Assembly: GCA_024281175.1 (NCBI GenBank)
Contig: JAMJTW010000014.1
Span: 1 to 64,000, forward strand
Source of the DNA: Candidatus Thiovulum imperiosus
GTDB taxonomy: Bacteria > Campylobacterota > Campylobacteria > Campylobacterales > Thiovulaceae
Length of the DNA: 64,000 nucleotides
Direction: 5' to 3'
A program made the translations under genes and the position numbers. This document shows positions 2,501 through 32,707 of this stretch, one piece after another (position 1 is the first letter of the stretch; each line of letters starts with the position of its first letter). The notes beneath the pieces are model-generated. The model did not search any database and was not told the DNA's origin. It was given only the letters and a program-made list of their open reading frames with translations.

Positions 2501-5449
2501 CTAGCTTTCCAACTCTCTTAAAAGTTCCAAAGTCTCAAGGCTTACAGTCGTTACTTTTTTCAAAAGTGAGAGAACCTCATCGAAATCTATTTCGCTTTTT
2601 CCAAACTTTTCCCGAACTGTTTCGTCTCGAATTTTCTTCTCTTTGTATCCATCGATAACCCACTCAATTGCTGAACGATTTCCCAATTTATACTCAAGTG
2701 CCTCTTTTGGAAAGAAGTTTATAAAACTCTTTTTACTCAAATCTTTTCGAGAAACTTTTCCGAAATCGATAGAAAATTCTTTCGCTTTCTCAAAATCTGT
2801 ATGGAGTTCCAGAAGAGACTTTCCAACTTTTGAAAAGAGAGAAAAGTTTTCGTAAAATGGAATTCGAGGCAAATCCTGTTTTAGATTTGTCTCATATTTC
2901 TCTCTATACTCTGGAAAGTGGAGAACCGCGTAAATGTAGTGGAAAATTTGGAGTTTTATAACTTTTCCATACCGAACAGAAAACTTTTCTAAAGCAAAAT
3001 CTGTGATGTTTTCTACTTTGGAATTTTCGGTGAAAGTGTGGAGGGGGAAAGATTTAGTTTTTTCTAGCAAATCTAAATTTGGAAGAAGAGAAACCCCAAG
3101 AGCTTGAAAAGGTTTTGAGTGGGAAGTTCCACTTACAGAAATCACAACATTTTCACTTTCTGAAGTTGGGAAAGCATCAAACTGTTGGGCAGGTAAGTCT
3201 ATAAAAATATAATTCGAATTCAAATATTGTTTTACAAATGGTCTGTAAAGAGAGTGTCTAATTTTATCTTTTGAAAAAATAGCTTTTTTATTCTTTAAAA
3301 ACTTATCTCTTTTAATCATTTTAGTCCATTTAATTAGATTTTTTAAATGTAAAAAATCATTTAATCTTTTATCTGTTTCTTTAAACTTCTCATTTTCCAA
3401 TTTATTATCAATGATAAACTTTCGCCATCTTTCTAGTTCCAAATTATATTTTTCAATAAAATACTCTGCTTTCCTTTTCAAATTTTCCTTATCAAAATCA
3501 TAAACCCATTCGTCTCTATTTGTAGAAATCCCATTTGAAAAGTTCCTAAAAATTGCATTTTCCTCTTTTCCAAGTTTTGTCTCTTTTGTTCCCATTGGAA
3601 GAAGTTCTTCCCAATCGTTATCGGTTTGATTAAGCCAATTTCCTTTCTCATCTGGAAAAATATCTTCCCAATCCAAATCGAAAAACCGTTTTCCGTTTCG
3701 TTGTAGCCAAAGAAGTTTATTCTCTTTTCCAATTTCTGGATTTTTTAAATAGTGAAGTTTCGTCGGGCTTTCAGTTTCTCTTTTTACAAAAAAGGCGATA
3801 GCAACACCAACCATAATATCAAATACATTTCCATCTTTTTCACTTTTCCGAACATTTCCCCCCAAGTCAAGTATCCAGATTTCAGAAAATTCAGAAAAGA
3901 TAGTTTTCCGAAAGCCATCAAAAGTTTTGGAGTCGATAAAACTTGAGTTTGTTACAAAAGCTACAACTCCGCTTTTTCCAATTCTATCCGTAGCCCATCG
4001 GTAAAATCGAGAATACATATCATAGACTTTCGTCTTTTGAGCCGATGAGGTTTGGACATAAGTCTCCTTAATTCTCGAGTCCACTTTTGGATAAGCCAGA
4101 TTTTTATTATTATCATTCTCATTTTGCTGATTTGCATTGTATGGAGGATTTCCGATGATTACCGTAAAATCGCTATCCTCCTGCCGATTTACTCTCTCTG
4201 TATTCTCTTCAGAAAAGAGAAATTCCCCTTGTCCTTTCTGATTTTGAGAGAGTTCCAAAGTATCCACAAAACTTATATTTTCAAAGTCTCGAAATTCGCC
4301 TGTTCGCTGAAAATAGATATACTCAAAATTGATATTTGCAATGTAGTAAGGCAGAATTGCTATCTCATTTGCGAAAAGCTCACTACCATATTTCCGAACC
4401 AAATCCCGTTTCGGTATCCAGTTCATAATTTGAGTCAAGAAAGTTCCCGTTCCAGTTGCAGGGTCGAGAATTTGAACACCTTTTGAACTCAAGGACTTCT
4501 TGAAACTCTTTCTCAAAATTCCATCTGTCGCCTCAATCATAAAATCTACAATTTCAAAAGGGGTATAGACGATACCGAGTTTGTCGGCTCTTTTTGGATT
4601 GTAGGCTTTATAGAAACTTTCGTAAAGTGCATTTAGAAATTGGTGTTTCTCTCGATACCCTTTCAGATAGACGGAGTGCGTTTTTATCGCATCATAGAAG
4701 TTCCGAATTTTATGAAAAAGAGCTTTCTTCTCATTTCGTGAAAAAACTGCTATTTCGAGTTCGTTCAAAATCTTTGCGATGTTGTTCTCTTTGTGGAAAT
4801 CCGTAGAAAAGAGGTTTACAAAAATCTCTTCTGTAAGAATGTGTTGGATAAGCATCTCCAAAATCTCAGATTTCGAGATATTCCTATCGATACTCTCCTG
4901 ACAAATCGCCTCAAGCCTACGGTATGCTTTCTGAAATTTCGGTTTCTCTTCACTACTTGAAATTCGCCTCCGAACCTCATCAACAAGTTTTGGAACAGCT
5001 TCTGAAAATTTCTCTAAATTCTCTTCAAACTTTCTCTTTTCTGGATTCTCAAATTTGAAAAAAGTCTCTAAAAGCTCCTCTAACTTTTCAGCTTTCTCCA
5101 TTTCGATTTCCAAAACAGATTCTCCATTTTGAAAAAGAATCGCAAACTTTGAATTCTCAAAAATAATATTTGAAACTGGATACCCCTTTTCCAACTTCTT
5201 TGAAATTTCAGAATCCAAATTATCTTTTAAATCTTTCGCTTCCCAAAAACCGATATCAAACTCAAATTTATCTTTCACAACTCCATCTGGTCGAATATCT
5301 CCAAAAGAGACTTCTGGAACTAGTGAAAGATTTCTCTCTCTCGCAAAACTTGAAAGGAGGTTTTCAAAAGGTCTTCGGGTGCTACTCTCATTTTTTGAAA
5401 AGCTCTGTAACTCTTCTAACTCTCTATAATAATTTTCAATCTCTACCAT
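2501..5449 (-). CDS. type IIG restriction-modification enzyme (nuclease-methyltransferase fusion)
   Basis: 982 aa, a usual size for a single-chain type IIG enzyme. The N-terminus has a PD-(D/E)xK nuclease core: P54-D55 and, after a hydrophobic strand, E70-A-K72. A helical linker follows. The gamma-class N6-adenine methyltransferase has SAM motif I DPATGTGTF at about 329-337 and catalytic NPPY at 434-437. The last 350 residues are the expected target-recognition region. No helicase motifs are present, so it is not an LlaGI-like type ISP enzyme. It would methylate adenine on its site and cut nearby when the site is unmodified. There is no strong ribosome binding site before the ATG. The downstream neighbour on the same strand is a KilA-N protein. 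The target sequence cannot be read from the protein. Confidence 0.88.
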   Translation of the reverse strand: MVEIENYYRELEELQSFSKNESSTRRPFENLLSSFARERNLSLVPEVSFGDIRPDGVVKDKFEFDIGFWEAKDLKDNLDSEISKKLEKGYPVSNIIFENSKFAILFQNGESVLEIEMEKAEKLEELLETFFKFENPEKRKFEENLEKFSEAVPKLVDEVRRRISSSEEKPKFQKAYRRLEAICQESIDRNISKSEILEMLIQHILTEEIFVNLFSTDFHKENNIAKILNELEIAVFSRNEKKALFHKIRNFYDAIKTHSVYLKGYREKHQFLNALYESFYKAYNPKRADKLGIVYTPFEIVDFMIEATDGILRKSFKKSLSSKGVQILDPATGTGTFLTQIMNWIPKRDLVRKYGSELFANEIAILPYYIANINFEYIYFQRTGEFRDFENISFVDTLELSQNQKGQGEFLFSEENTERVNRQEDSDFTVIIGNPPYNANQQNENDNNKNLAYPKVDSRIKETYVQTSSAQKTKVYDMYSRFYRWATDRIGKSGVVAFVTNSSFIDSKTFDGFRKTIFSEFSEIWILDLGGNVRKSEKDGNVFDIMVGVAIAFFVKRETESPTKLHYLKNPEIGKENKLLWLQRNGKRFFDLDWEDIFPDEKGNWLNQTDNDWEELLPMGTKETKLGKEENAIFRNFSNGISTNRDEWVYDFDKENLKRKAEYFIEKYNLELERWRKFIIDNKLENEKFKETDKRLNDFLHLKNLIKWTKMIKRDKFLKNKKAIFSKDKIRHSLYRPFVKQYLNSNYIFIDLPAQQFDAFPTSESENVVISVSGTSHSKPFQALGVSLLPNLDLLEKTKSFPLHTFTENSKVENITDFALEKFSVRYGKVIKLQIFHYIYAVLHFPEYREKYETNLKQDLPRIPFYENFSLFSKVGKSLLELHTDFEKAKEFSIDFGKVSRKDLSKKSFINFFPKEALEYKLGNRSAIEWVIDGYKEKKIRDETVREKFGKSEIDFDEVLSLLKKVTTVSLETLELLRELES

Positions 5450-24017: not shown

Positions 24018-24110
24018 TTATCCTTTTTGGAAATTGTAACCTATGTCTAAATTTTGGGAGTAACCAAATAGACTTCTGCCGAAAAGAGAAGCGAGAATGA
24101 TTTTTTTCAT
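24018..24110 (-). pseudogene. truncated small secreted peptide gene fused to MITE D
   Basis: A 30-codon frame starting MKKIILASLF. Its upstream bases and first codons match those of the peptide gene at 25735-25971: shared TTTCATCTCA start context and a TTTATTTTGGCAA-like leader. After the signal-peptide part the frame runs into the end of MITE D (SLFGYS) and soon stops, two bases before the ribBA start. I take it as a paralogue cut off by the element. Confidence 0.6.
24056..24080. mobile_element. MITE-like fragment D (left end only)
   Basis: Terminal repeat GGGAGTAACCAAATAG at 24056-24071 followed by ACTTCTGCC, as in family 1 elements. The rest of the element and its right end are missing. 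Confidence 0.65.
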
Positions 24111-24434
24111 CTCACACTTCCTAAATTTATTTTGGCAATAGTGCTTTTAAAGATTTTGGACTCCCACTTTCCAAAAGAAGAGTTCTTCAAAAATATGATT
24201 TAAGAAAATGTTTCTCTGTTTTATATTTTGAAAATAAATTCTATTAGAGTAGACTTCTGAACTTTAAAATATCAAAAATAAAATCAGAACTTTTGACTAT
24301 TTTTTGAAACTCTTGGTTTGTTTCAAGTTCAAAGTTTGGAATTACAGCAAGAATTTTCCCGCCACTCTCTTTTGTTTGAAACATTTCAAGAAATTTAGCT
24401 TTCTTAACTTTAATATTTCAAAAAGATGGGTCAG
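24111..24434. other. scrambled intergenic stretch with gene and repeat remnants
   Basis: No complete gene. It holds the promoter-like leader of the truncated peptide gene (about 24111-24140), a copy of the 66-bp repeat (24185-24250), and an open minus-strand fragment (24244-24417) of 57 codons with no start at its 5' end, containing KFLEMFQTKESGGKILAVIP. I do not recognise the fragment's family. The block is closed by a lone terminal-repeat-like GGGTCAGCTAAATAG at 24428-24442. Confidence 0.5.
24185..24250. repeat. 66-bp dispersed repeat, copy 1
   Basis: AATATGATTTAAGAAAATG followed by TTTCTCTGTTTTATATTTTG and AAAATAAATTCTATTAGAGTA. It matches 26166-26231 at about 85-90 percent. Both copies lie upstream of a small-secreted-peptide reading frame on the minus strand. 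It may have been carried along when the peptide gene was duplicated. Confidence 0.7.
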
Positions 24435-25014
24435 CTAAATAGATGTAATTTTCTCATTTTTCTGAAAAGAGGATTTCAAAAAGAAGACGATTGGGTCGCT
24501 TGTGTAATAGGAAGAGACAAAAATGGAATTAGACTTGAAATTCATATCTTCTCTTCTATTCTCTAACTCGACTCTATTTATCGCTTGTGTTGAACCTCCA
24601 ATTAGAAGAGCTGGATAGCTATCCTCTTTCCGAATTTGATATATCAATCCTAAAGTTGAAAAGTCTCTTTTCTGTCTGAAATCCATCTGCTGATGAGGTT
24701 CGAGAGAAGTTTGAAAACCATGAAGCATAACTGAAAACTTCTAAACTTTTTGAAATTCCATATTTCAAATTTGCTGAATAGGTTATGAAATCTATGTTTG
24801 TAGAACTCTCTCCTGCAAATGTTGAAACTGTTACAAAATCTCCAGCTGATGTTTGATAGTTTATCAAAGCTAATGAACCTGACTTCTGATTTGTGTTTGT
24901 ATAAGTCGTGGAAATATCTAGCTTTATCTCGTTTTTGTCTGAAAGTATCTCTTCCACTTTTACCGCTTTTGAGAAAAGGAGAATTGGGAAGAGAAATATA
25001 AGATACTTTTTCAA
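24435..25014 (-). pseudogene. outer-membrane beta-barrel protein, frameshifted and truncated
   Basis: The first frame (from ATG at 25014) has a signal peptide MKKYLIFLFPILLFSKA and then alternating beta strands (EIKLDISTTYTNTN, SLALINYQTSAGDF, YSANLKYGISKSLEVFSYASW). The barrel continues in another frame from about 24690 (DFRQKRDFSTLGLIYQIRK, PALLIGGSTQAINR), so a one-base frameshift lies at about 24665-24690. The second frame ends at SSFQKNEKITSI with a TAG that belongs to a terminal-repeat-like sequence (24428-24442), well short of a normal barrel. It is a dead gene unless the frameshift is a sequence error. Exact family not recognised. Confidence 0.65.
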
Positions 25015-25113: not shown

Positions 25114-25281
25114 TTATTTCATAGTAGACACTATCTCATCTATTAAGTATATAGTTCCAGTAAATATTAGGAAACTACCAACAGTTAGACTACTACTTAA
25201 ATAAGAAACTCCAAAACTAATTATTGCTATTGGAAACATAATAAAAACTAAAAGTTTTAATAACTTGCCAACTAAGTTCAA
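25114..25281 (-). CDS. tiny membrane protein (55 aa)
   Basis: 55 codons beginning at TTG, four bases after the stop of the 79-aa gene, on the same strand. About two hydrophobic segments: LLKLLVFIMFPIAIISFGV and a shorter LTVGSFLIFTGTIYLI. The Shine-Dalgarno is weak and an internal ATG is possible. I recognise no family. It is supported by the tight packing of four such genes (25114-25971) and by open reading in only this frame. Candidate accessory or immunity protein for the small secreted peptide encoded upstream; this role is inference. Confidence 0.45.
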   Translation of the reverse strand: MNLVGKLLKLLVFIMFPIAIISFGVSYLSSSLTVGSFLIFTGTIYLIDEIVSTMK

Positions 25282-25285
25282 CTTA

Positions 25286-25525
25286 TTACTTTTTTGTATA
25301 AATTAGCCACATAATATGTAAGTTCATGAAAACAAACAACAAGCTTTCTGCAATTAAAACTTTAACATCAGCTATTAGACAAATCACCAGTAAGTACATA
25401 AATACTAGAGCATAAATGCTTCCTATTAAGAGATGACTATTATATATTTCTTTTATATATTTGATATTAAAAACATTATAAATAATAATAACCATACAAA
25501 ATGTTGTGATTACTTCCAATACCAT
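25286..25525 (-). CDS. small membrane protein (79 aa)
   Basis: 79 aa, three hydrophobic segments (VITTFCMVIIIYNVF, LLIGSIYALVFMYLLVICLIA, VLIAESLLFVFMNLHIMWLIY) and few charges. No family recognised. It is in a run of four small genes on the minus strand between two terminators or repeats. AT-richer than neighbouring housekeeping genes. Likely inner-membrane. Confidence 0.6.
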   Translation of the reverse strand: MVLEVITTFCMVIIIYNVFNIKYIKEIYNSHLLIGSIYALVFMYLLVICLIADVKVLIAESLLFVFMNLHIMWLIYTKK

Positions 25526-25566
25526 ATTAAATACTAATTATGAATAGTCAAACCAGCTAAGTTCAA

Positions 25567-25734
25567 CTATTTAAGTTTATTAGTTCTAAAATAAAGAACA
25601 ATTATTGCAAACATTGAAAAAATTGTAATTCCAAAACCATTAAAGTAATTTTCTAATATATATATATTATATATTCCCCAAATCAACAGAGGAAGTATAA
25701 ATAATATTAACTCTATTAGAAAAATAACTATCAA
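25567..25734 (-). CDS. tiny membrane protein (55 aa)
   Basis: 55 codons. The TTG start follows directly on the stop codon of the peptide gene (TAA TTG), so translation is probably coupled. Two hydrophobic segments: IVIFLIELILFILPLLIWGIY and GITIFSMFAIIVLYF, with a basic end FRTNKLK. No family recognised. The coupling to the secreted peptide gene suggests a linked function such as immunity or export. Confidence 0.5.
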   Translation of the reverse strand: MIVIFLIELILFILPLLIWGIYNIYILENYFNGFGITIFSMFAIIVLYFRTNKLK

Positions 25735-25971
25735 TTATCTTCCCTGTGCTCCAGTTAAATAAGCTGACCTAGAACTTAAACTATATACTGTCCAACCTAT
25801 TGCAAAGAAAAACCACTGTCCATCAGTTTCAACCATCTCATTTTGAGAAATTAGTTGGGCATCAACTTTTTGATTTCCAAAAAGGAACTGTTGGTCAGAG
25901 TTCTGAAGTGAACTAGCGAAAATGGAACTTCCTCCAAAGAGAAGAGCAAAAGTGAGAATGAGTTTTTTCAT
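25735..25971 (-). CDS. small secreted peptide, bacteriocin-like precursor (candidate)
   Basis: 78 aa from ATG 25971, which has a very strong GGAGG six bases upstream; the longer frame from 25998 would start before the likely transcription start. A Sec signal MKKLILTFALLFGGSSIFAS is followed by a polar stretch and LISQNEMVETDGQ. This resembles the LSxxEMxxVxGG end of peptide leader sequences. The tail (QWFFFAIGWTVYSLSSRSAY) is aromatic and hydrophobic. A truncated paralogue stands at 24018-24110. Its neighbours are three tiny membrane proteins. A processed antimicrobial or signalling peptide is one reading; a simple small envelope protein is the other. Confidence 0.55.
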   Translation of the reverse strand: MKKLILTFALLFGGSSIFASSLQNSDQQFLFGNQKVDAQLISQNEMVETDGQWFFFAIGWTVYSLSSRSAYLTGAQGR

Positions 25972-25999
25972 CTCATACCTCCGAAATTTGTTTGGCAAG

Positions 26000-26005
26000 A
26001 TTATA
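26000..26005 (-). promoter_or_regulatory. -10 box for the small peptide operon
   Basis: On the minus strand: TATAAT preceded by a T-rich stretch (TTTTTTAGCTTTAAC), the usual Campylobacterota sigma-70 form without a clear -35. It is placed about 29 bases before the chosen start codon of the peptide gene. Confidence 0.6.
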
Positions 26006-26263
26006 TATAGTTAAAGCTAAAAAATAGTTTTGAATATAAGAAAAATTTCTTAAAAAAGTTAAGCATATGTTATAAAATATGATTAAAACTGCTTTCAAAA
26101 AATATATTTTATAAAAAATAGTAGCGGTAAAACCGTCTTTTTTGAAATTTTGAATTCTTAAGTTTCTTAAAATATGATTTAAGAAAATATTTCTCTGTTT
26201 TCTATTTTGAAAACAAATTCTGTTAAAGTATTTTCATGCTTTAAAAATTTATATGGCAGTGGA
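26006..26263. other. AT-rich intergenic stretch with repeat copy
   Basis: No gene found. It contains the upstream region of the peptide operon, a small inverted repeat around AGCGGTAAAACCGTC (26123-26137), and the second copy of the 66-bp repeat. It ends at MITE E. Confidence 0.6.
26166..26231. repeat. 66-bp dispersed repeat, copy 2
   Basis: AATATGATTTAAGAAAATA, then TTTCTCTGTTTTCTATTTTG and AAAACAAATTCTGTTAAAGTA; about 85-90 percent identical to 24185-24250. It is placed between MITE E and the small peptide operon. Confidence 0.7.
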
Positions 26264-26437
26264 GGGAATGACCAAGTAGGCTTCTGCCTCTATTGTCATT
26301 TCGATATGAGCGTAGAGATTGAGAAATCTTGGAAACTTATCGTTTTACTCGAAGTGATGTAAAAGATTTCTCACCCAAAAGGGTTCGAAATGACATATGG
26401 GTTGTCAAAGTGTAAAGTCTTCTATTTGGTCACTCCC
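26264..26437. mobile_element. MITE-like element E (family 1, 174 bp)
   Basis: Terminal repeats GGGAATGACCAAGTAG and CTATTTGGTCACTCCC. The interior is the longest family-1 version, inverted relative to element B: GCTTCTGCCTCT, TGTCATTTCGATATGAGCG, GAGAAATCTTGGAAACTTA, CGTTTTACT, AGATTTCTCACCC, GGGTTCGAAATGACA. The two halves can pair into a long imperfect hairpin. No obvious target duplication. Its right end is four bases from the stop of the 103-aa gene. Confidence 0.88.
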
Positions 26438-26441
26438 TTAT

Positions 26442-26753
26442 TTATTCTTCCACTCTACATATGGTGAGTGAACGACAACTTCCATTGATATTAAAACCAT
26501 GATATTTTCTGGACTCAGAACTACTTCTTGTTCCTCCAGTTCCATTTTCAGTGCATGTTGTTAGTCGAAAATTGCTCTTATTTATAATATTTACTTCTGC
26601 TTCACCCCAAGGTGAAAAATCACATATAAGATTTCCTCCACTTTCAAATACATCTATCTTATTAGCTTCACTATATTCAGAATAAGTTACTACAGATATA
26701 ATTGATAAGACAATCAGAACTACAATTCCAAAATCTCTTTTTCCTTTATTCAC
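26442..26753 (-). CDS. small exported or membrane-anchored protein, unknown function
   Basis: 103 aa from a GTG start with GAAAGGAAAAA before it. One N-terminal membrane segment (about 8-25, FGIVVLIVLSIISVVTY) and a periplasmic domain with four cysteines (C44, C67, C92 and C99 by rough count) that could form two disulfides, with a Gly/Ser/Thr-rich middle. No family recognised. It sits between MITE E and MITE F, so it may be a recently moved or framed gene. Confidence 0.6.
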   Translation of the reverse strand: MNKGKRDFGIVVLIVLSIISVVTYSEYSEANKIDVFESGGNLICDFSPWGEAEVNIINKSNFRLTTCTENGTGGTRSSSESRKYHGFNINGSCRSLTICRVEE

Positions 26754-26772
26754 TTTTTCCTTTCAAATTTTA

Positions 26773-26890
26773 GGGAGTGGCTAAATAGCTTTTTTAGGGA
26801 AAAACACTCTGAAGTAAAACGATCATAGAGTTTTAGATAGACTCTGCGACTACGCTCAGAGTAGAAGTCCTACTCTATTTAGCTAATTCC
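26773..26890. mobile_element. MITE-like element F (family 2, 118 bp)
   Basis: Terminal repeats GGGAGTGGCTAAATAG and CTATTTAGCTAATTCC. Interior words CTTTTTTAGGG, AAACACTCTGA and ACTACGCTCAGAGTAGAAG match elements A (inverted) and G. It also contains AAAACGATCATAGAG, which is absent from the others. No target duplication seen. Confidence 0.82.
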
Positions 26891-26918
26891 TGCAAAGAGC
26901 CTAAGGGTAGACTCTTCT

Positions 26919-31210: not shown

Positions 31211-32584
31211 ATGGCAAATTTAAAAGAGCTAGAAAAGATAGTTGGAGTAGATAATGTCTACTTAGATAAAGCTCACCTCATCGCCTACTCTTATGATGCA
31301 ACTCGAAGCAGTTTTAAACCTGATGCAGTTGTTTTTCCAAGAGATGAGAAAGATGTAAGTGAAGTTCTAAAGTTTTGTAATAGAAACAGAGTACCAATTG
31401 TTCCAAGAGGTGCGGGAAGCGGTTTTACTGGTGGAGCTTTACCAAGTGAAGGAGGTATAGTTCTCGCTTTTGAGAAACATATGAACAGAATTTTAGAAAT
31501 TGATATGGAAAATATGGTTGCAATTGTTCAACCTGGTGTAATAAATATGGATTTACAAAAGGAAGTAGAGTCTAAAGGTCTTTTTTATCCACCAGACCCA
31601 GCAAGTGAAAATTACTCAACAATTGGAGGAAATGTTTCTGAAAATGCTGGAGGAATGAGAGCTACAAAATATGGAATTACCAAAGATTTTGTGATGGCAC
31701 TTCGGGCTGTTTTACCAAATGGAGAGGTGATACGAGCTGGAAAGAGAACTATAAAAGATGTTGCAGGATACAATGTTGTTGGAACTCTTGTTGGTAGCGA
31801 GGGAACTCTTGCTGTCATTACAGAAGTAACCTTGAAACTTCTCTCAAAACCGAAACTCTCTAAAACAGCAATGGGAATTTTTCCAGATGTTGAGTCGGCG
31901 ATGAGGTCGGTTTTTAAAACTATGGCAAGTGGAGTAACTCCTGTTGCAATGGAATTTTTAGATGCTCTTACAATCCGTGCAGTTGAAGAGAAATATAAAA
32001 TTGGACTTCCTAAAAATGCTGGAGGAATTCTTGTAACAGATGTTGATGGAGATTTGGAAATAAACTTAGAGAAAGATTTAGAACTCATAGAGGCTAAGTT
32101 TCGAGAAAATGGAGCTTTTGATTTTAAAATCGCTAAAGATGAAGCTGAAGCAAAAGATATCTGGTTTGCAAGACGAAATGCAAGTCAGGCAATTTCCATC
32201 TATGGTAGTAAGAAAATCAATGAAGATGTAACAGTTCCAAGAAGTAAACTTCCAGAAACTTTAAAGAAATTTGGAGAAGTTGGAGAGAAATATGGTATTC
32301 AGATACCTTGCTTTGGACACTCTGGAGATGGAAATATCCATACAAATGTAATGGTTGATGGGAAAGACCCAAAAGCTGTGGAAATAGGATACAAAGCAAT
32401 AGAAGAGATTTTCCAAATTACAGTTGATATGGGCGGAACTCTTTCTGGTGAACATGGTATTGGATTGGCAAAAGCACCTTATATGAAAATGGCTTTTACT
32501 GATGCTGAAATGGAACTTTTTCGAAGCATGAAAAAAGCGTTTGACCCAAATAATATCTTAAATCCTAATAAAATGGGACTTTAG
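31211..32584 (+). CDS. glcD: glycolate/D-lactate oxidase subunit, FAD-linked
   Basis: 457 aa from ATG 31211. GGAG is five bases upstream; the in-frame GTG at 31205 overlaps this site and is rejected. FAD PCMH-type binding domain: PRGAGSGFTGGALP, ENAGGMRATKYG, LVGSEGTLAVITE. C-terminal FAD-linked oxidase domain ends with HSGDGNIH and GEHGIGLAK, which carry the catalytic and metal histidines. It oxidises a 2-hydroxyacid (glycolate or D-lactate) and passes electrons onward. The iron-sulfur partner GlcF is not adjacent; a MITE follows instead. Confidence 0.92.
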   Translation: MANLKELEKIVGVDNVYLDKAHLIAYSYDATRSSFKPDAVVFPRDEKDVSEVLKFCNRNRVPIVPRGAGSGFTGGALPSEGGIVLAFEKHMNRILEIDMENMVAIVQPGVINMDLQKEVESKGLFYPPDPASENYSTIGGNVSENAGGMRATKYGITKDFVMALRAVLPNGEVIRAGKRTIKDVAGYNVVGTLVGSEGTLAVITEVTLKLLSKPKLSKTAMGIFPDVESAMRSVFKTMASGVTPVAMEFLDALTIRAVEEKYKIGLPKNAGGILVTDVDGDLEINLEKDLELIEAKFRENGAFDFKIAKDEAEAKDIWFARRNASQAISIYGSKKINEDVTVPRSKLPETLKKFGEVGEKYGIQIPCFGHSGDGNIHTNVMVDGKDPKAVEIGYKAIEEIFQITVDMGGTLSGEHGIGLAKAPYMKMAFTDAEMELFRSMKKAFDPNNILNPNKMGL

Positions 32585-32589
32585 ATTTT

Positions 32590-32689
32590 GGAAACTGACC
32601 AAATAGCTTTTTCAGGGCAAAACACTCTGAGGGAGATAGATTCTGCAACTACGCTCAAAGAGGAAATCCTACTCTATTTGGTCACTTCC
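32590..32689. mobile_element. MITE-like element G (family 2, about 100 bp)
   Basis: Terminal repeats GAAACTGACCAAATAG and CTATTTGGTCACTTCC. Interior CTTTTTCAGGGCAAAACAC, TCTGAGGGAGATAGA and AACTACGCTCAAAGAGGAAA as in elements A and F. It is the shortest member and begins six bases after the glcD stop. No clear target duplication. Confidence 0.82.
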
Positions 32690-32707
32690 GAATTTGTTTT
32701 GGCATCT

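Follow-up and report, generated by a model that had tools for sequence, protein, structure and literature searches.

The hemocin operon hmcDCBAI of Avibacterium paragallinarum plasmid p250 (NC_005245.1) encodes a stand-alone C39 peptidase, the HmcD barrel and an adjacent immunity gene, and its structural protein (MKKFFILLIAIIFSSASLASS...VLSQKEMSEVKGG, followed by the core) joins a Sec-type signal to a leader. Bacteriocin activity of haemocin against other types of Haemophilus influenzae has been reported (PMC8873416). A parallel case is the nap island of Neisseria, with small GG peptides (NapA-C), a stand-alone C39 peptidase (NapP), a FapF-like channel (NapF) and the immunity-like napI; its peptides promote stationary-phase autolysis, and other bacteria were not inhibited in tests (PMC11798529). 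The Fap system of Pseudomonas pairs a periplasmic C39 peptidase (FapD), whose active-site cysteine is required for secretion, with a 12-strand barrel (FapF), and Asn/Gln-rich repeats have been described in FapC (PMC5557850). Class II microcins and double-glycine bacteriocins have EM- or EL-type leaders that end in glycine and undergo C39-type cleavage, and the putative pilus system Fil of Acinetobacter includes a C39 peptidase, FilB.

The locus compared with these systems here lies in a window (the whole stretch of DNA analyzed, 64,000 nucleotides of Candidatus Thiovulum imperiosus). Its four open reading frames (ORFs) of 78, 55, 79 and 55 aa are located on the minus strand where the initial annotation had placed them. 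The first (25735-25971, ATG start) is the best coding frame and encodes a precursor that matches the family profile described below with an E-value of 2e-22. The 78-aa protein is laid out as a Sec-type signal, LISQNEMVETDGQ and an aromatic tail, with three small membrane ORFs after it, and its sequence divides as MKKLILTFALLFGGSSIFA/SSLQNSDQQFLFGNQKVDAQLISQNEMVETDGQ/WFFFAIGWTVYSLSSRSAYLTGAQGR. The signal peptide, judged by eye, comprises approximately residues 1-19. The post-signal leader (residues ~20-52; 25816-25914, minus strand) carries xxDQQFLFG and LISQNEMVETDG and extends to the predicted C39 site T-D-G-Q; it corresponds to the conserved block in family alignments and ends at the leader/core border seen between paralogues. 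The variable core, delimited by leader/core comparison (residues 53-78; 25738-25815, minus strand), has a net charge of +2 and is 27% aromatic; written as (Q)WFFFAIGWTVYSLSSRSAYLTGAQGR, it amounts to 26-27 aa. A GGAGG ribosome-binding site, also noted at the outset, is located six bases ahead of the ATG (25978-25982, minus strand). The strong promoter claimed for this gene is retained only in part: a TATAAT -10-like box is present (26000-26005, minus strand), but a consensus -35 element is absent and the promoter scan lists no site there.

Neither the precursor nor the small ORFs matched Pfam, NCBIfam or PHROGs above cut-offs. The sole match in the contig scan, from Alistipes (L015), covers the signal peptide only, lies ahead of a GDSL-like hydrolase gene and was rejected as a relative. 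A kinship of the window core with cores of the FWPIxWGL...NAPSYGD type was also rejected: the two ranked cores of this type reached z-scores of only 1.4-1.6, 31-32 of 300 shuffles scored equally well, and another core ranked higher.

Relatives of the window protein were found in 11 of 299 genomes of the same order. With an N-terminal profile built from them, strong matches (E<1e-8) were obtained from 20 of the 399 genomes searched in the order, which belong to at least eight families (numbered with an f in the whole-genome matches) and have up to seven copies each. The precursors of these 20 genomes have in common a signal-like N-terminus, xxDxQFLFG and LSxxEMxxTxG[E/Q/K/A]. The residue after the motif glycine is mostly E, sometimes Q, K or A (the window precursor has GQ), and the sequence past G-x is hypervariable. 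Between paralogues of one genome, leader identity compares with core identity as 90% versus 23% (G082), 75% versus 12% (G376) and 94% versus 23% (G394). At the EM-x-x-T-x-G motif, the conserved leader gives way to cores that are exchangeable. Weaker profile matches also proved real: these are signal proteins ending EVKGG, VVGG or IKGA that adjoin divergent C39 genes. Cleavage-site residues are GE, GQ, GK or GA in the core family and GG or GA in these extended members. Cores measure 24-80 aa and are of Gly/aromatic/cationic composition in the core family, and those of some extended members reach 90-120 aa, which is long for bacteriocins. Literature searches found no such system in Campylobacterota.

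In the relatives, precursor genes adjoin genes for an outer-membrane barrel of ~290 aa (OMP1) and a stand-alone C39 peptidase of ~225 aa with a signal-like N-terminus (PF03412, Peptidase_C39, E = 2.7e-19). The C39 proteins are single-domain, ~185-230 aa in length. Their closest NCBIfam model is FapD (E = 6e-27, at 94 bits against an equivalog cut-off of 330), followed by FilB (E = 1e-22); Fil components other than this C39 relative were not found. For a relative's OMP1, AlphaFold2 with ten sequences predicted a barrel of 12 strands (pLDDT 79.7), and FapF structures occupy the first 14 places among its PDB matches (E = 1e-12 to 1e-9, TM-score 0.64-0.72). Strong C39 matches accompany strong leader matches in 16 of the 20 genomes with a leader, but occur in only 3 of the 379 others (Fisher p = 3e-22). 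An intact C39 gene is lacking in four leader genomes: the window's own, which has a remnant, two in which the precursor is near a contig end (G053 and G377) and one with masked stretches downstream (G049).

Comparison of Campylobacterota profiles with the hemocin components of p250 gave E-values of 8e-9 for the leader, 1e-20 for C39 and 4e-13 for the barrel against HmcD; the window precursor is a member of the leader profile that matches the hemocin structural protein (E = 7.8e-9). Judged from these matches, the family belongs to the haemocin type and the window copy is a broken member: the leader precursor is intact, whereas the exported C39 peptidase and the HmcD/FapF-like barrel are not. 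Like the hemocin structural protein, the Campylobacterota precursors combine a Sec-type signal and a leader. The differences concern the cleavage motif (GG in hemocin, G-E/Q/K in the Campylobacterota family), the core (cysteine-rich in hemocin, unlike Campylobacterota cores), the immunity protein (apparently soluble in hemocin, membrane proteins as candidates here), the AAA ATPase gene in the HmcB position, which is not consistently seen in Campylobacterota, and the gene order. Class II microcins and double-glycine bacteriocins resemble the family in leader and in C39-type cleavage, but the microcin C39 domain is fused to an ABC transporter, whereas here C39 is a separate protein that has an export signal of its own, and Sec signals are present on the precursors.

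The same cassette was found on Acinetobacter plasmids. The small mobilizable plasmid pTR11_4 of Acinetobacter sp. TR11 (L143, 6.3 kb) has a complete-looking version, consisting of a precursor with an EMKDTQG leader and a Gly-rich core, a 108-aa multi-TM protein, C39 and the end of a barrel. Genes for a C39 family protein next to a hypothetical protein at the place of the barrel, related to the extended family, also occur on many conjugative plasmids of Campylobacter jejuni and on a plasmid of C. upsaliensis, for example at 3150-4582 of NZ_OU701460.1 (L145). Viral contigs gave only three distant C39 matches (24-28%). Seven stand-alone C39 genes are scattered over an f14 genome (G316; L083, L126-L128), each at a locus of its own, and a barrel and a precursor accompany several of them. 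A C39 gene and a barrel-like gene also adjoin the gene of an 886-aa protein (L137, 6580-9240) that bears a signal and, close to the N-terminus, LSDSDLGEISAQG; this protein appears to be a large cargo with a similar leader. At two loci of family f11 (L119 and L123, genus g28), precursors adjoin repeated proteins of ~430-450 aa (MSIFSINDNSNYGSILSQ...), with several copies per locus.

Three small membrane ORFs follow the precursor in the window, all on the minus strand. A 55-aa two-TM protein, a candidate immunity protein, is encoded at 25567-25734, and its TTG start (25734) directly abuts the precursor stop codon. A 79-aa three-TM protein (25286-25525) is a candidate immunity or accessory protein, and a second 55-aa small membrane protein is encoded at 25114-25281 from a TTG start at 25281, or as 41 aa from an internal ATG. 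For each, its own annotated frame is best by codon usage. Together they cover 576 of 621 bases, compared with a shuffle mean of 53, and none of 1000 dinucleotide shuffles reached 576. The three membrane ORFs are not due to chance.

A small multi-TM protein is encoded after the precursor in the window and in six other loci (L062, L063, L064, L073, L076 and L078); similarity between the 79-aa window protein and the TM partner of L076 was not significant. Similar cores of the NAPSYGD type in G082 and G049 (families f7 and f17) have homologous TM partners (46% identity, E = 7e-18). Between the barrel gene and the C39 gene of one Acinetobacter plasmid lie two precursors whose cores differ, and the small partner that comes after each is also a different one. 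Cores and TM partners that travel together in this manner would look like the pattern expected of putative immunity. The initial annotation had looked to homologues for both the EM...G motif and linked small membrane genes. The motif is near-invariant; the linkage is found in several lineages but is not universal. Two loci (L066 and L067) have neither small membrane genes nor a barrel-like protein, and the gene after most precursors of the f14 lineage is for a barrel-like protein of ~245 aa rather than a small TM protein. The ~245-aa proteins of f14 genomes (L068-L071, L077-L082) are paralogous, with an N-terminal CEESxC-type motif.

The barrel and peptidase genes are decayed in the window, and their remnant (24259-25014, minus strand) had been missed by the initial annotation. 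The N-terminal part of the FapF/HmcD-like OMP1 barrel is preserved as a pseudogene at 24667-25014 (OMP1 profile positions 3-117, E = 8.8e-35). The middle part is in another frame, owing to a frameshift, at 24450-24716 (positions 103-194, E = 3e-24), and the last strands are missing. A C-terminal remnant of the C39 gene with two in-frame TGA codons is located at 24259-24471 (C39 profile positions 145-219, E = 5.3e-18). Through an internal deletion the barrel gene runs into the final ~75 codons of the C39 gene; the first two thirds of the latter, with the catalytic Cys and His, are lost. The window's genome (98% complete) gave no further copy of C39 or OMP1 and no match to PF03412. Sequencing error, which could account for one frameshift but not for the internal deletion and two further stops, was rejected as a full explanation of the OMP1 break. 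The OMP1 fragment also matched a Shiga-toxin model, at 13.9 bits with a cut-off of 720, which is noise.

A second, truncated copy of the precursor, described from the outset, is indeed present at 24089-24251 (minus strand, repeats D2 and D7). It consists of the upstream region and the first ~10 codons, is 92% (24190-24251) and 86% (24089-24132) identical to the precursor upstream/start region, and ends at the edge of a MITE-like repeat. A MITE-like element occupies 26263-26438; its terminal inverted repeats match imperfectly (17 of 24), and it has at least 41 copies in the genome. Further MITE-like elements of the window are at 26768-26895 and 32583-32697. Between two such elements lies a 103-aa ORF (26442-26753, minus strand) that has a hydrophobic anchor at its N-terminus and matched no family. 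Because the truncated precursor copy adjoins the remnants and the genome is MITE-rich, the machinery may have been lost through rearrangement between repeats.

The window thus retains an intact precursor and candidate immunity genes, with working processing and export probably absent. Because both the barrel and C39 genes are broken, this strain is unlikely to process and release a peptide; the gene content suggests that the strain may keep immunity without production. In the only other genome of the same genus (G053; L002/L074), the precursor frame breaks at the cleavage motif, and decay or homopolymer error may also affect that genus.

Homology of the leader, C39 and barrel to hemocin components, together with the location of the EM-x-x-T-x-G motif at the boundary of conserved leader and swappable cores, makes a bacteriocin with immunity proteins, one of the possibilities raised by the initial annotation, the reading with the strongest support. 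The four-gene cassette was too narrow a description, as a FapF-like pore and a FapD-like peptidase belong to it too. We consider it probable that the precursors form a haemocin-type, bacteriocin-like peptide family of which the window cassette is a relic; a haemocin-type bacteriocin is the best reading of the sequences, and killing is putative.

We infer localisation, cleavage, secretion, killing and immunity as follows. Sec would export the unfolded precursor, and signal peptidase would remove the first ~19 residues, as predicted from sequence. A stand-alone, Sec-exported C39 peptidase of the FapD/HmcC type would recognize the leader xxDxQFLFG...LSxxEMxxTxG-x in the periplasm and cut at or just after G-x, freeing a hydrophobic or cationic core of 24-80 residues. 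A counter-point is that the residue after the motif glycine is usually E, Q or K, versus the G, A or S usual at C39 sites. The core would leave through the dedicated 12-strand barrel (OMP1, FapF/HmcD-like) and would most likely act as a bacteriocin-like, membrane-active peptide, while in many lineages the small multi-TM protein encoded directly downstream would protect the producer. The window's genome has kept the precursor and TM genes intact, the frameshift, internal deletion and stop codons having destroyed the barrel and peptidase. A Sec signal and a GG-like leader would occur in one protein because the C39 peptidase lies in the periplasm and exit is through a FapF-like pore. This pairing had been regarded as unusual; it recurs across the family together with a periplasmic-type C39, and is a signature of systems with a periplasmic C39 and no unique oddity.

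The same export machinery could also serve peptides that act on the producer's own population, by Nap-like autolysis, or as a peptide signal. We regard this as unlikely. The nap island does have the same parts, with autolysis reported and competitors not killed (PMC11798529), and the C39 protein of a gonococcal record in the plasmid collection is 37% identical to the Campylobacterota C39; hypervariable cores that are swapped between paralogues are, however, more usual for weapons than for signals, a matching small TM protein accompanies several of the cores as would be expected of immunity, and bacteriocin activity has been reported for the homologous hemocin (PMC8873416).

A Fap-like functional amyloid or surface-fibre system, with cores that assemble outside the cell, is still less probable. 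Its pure amyloid form was dropped for lack of repeats: the cores, at 24-80 aa in the core family and of Gly/aromatic/cationic composition, do not have the Asn/Gln-rich repeats of FapC (PMC5557850), and such repeats were not found in the core sequences inspected. The best matches of C39 and the barrel are FapD and FapF, respectively, with the same fold as in Fap (PMC5557850), but the Fap cargo is an amyloid without a canonical C39 leader, unlike the precursors here, whose leader homology points to hemocin. FapF also has a long periplasmic coiled coil for which OMP1, at ~290 aa, has no room, and no FapA, B, C or E lookalikes were seen in the neighbourhoods. Least probable of all, and very doubtful, is a small envelope protein kept at full length with an incidental EM...G motif, since the motif is near-invariant at the conserved/variable border and the family co-occurs with a C39 peptidase, even if the window protein may stay uncut in a genome where no C39 was found.

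The haemocin-type reading may extend further. There is, in our estimate, an even chance that peptide bacteriocins throughout Campylobacterota and Pseudomonadota use a general export route that dispenses with ABC transporters, leading from Sec to a periplasmic C39 with relaxed G-x recognition and on to a FapF-like pore, with exchangeable core/immunity modules, and that haemocin, the nap island and the unnamed families form one secretion class.

The analysis identifies a previously unremarked peptide family across Campylobacterota and accounts for the presence of both a Sec signal and a bacteriocin-type leader in one protein. Haemocin, nap and Fap, which were described separately, are joined by one machine pair, a periplasmic C39 peptidase and a FapF-type pore. 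With the leader, barrel and peptidase conserved, many new peptide loci can be found by profile, in a group of bacteria that includes Campylobacter, Helicobacter and many inhabitants of vents and sediments.
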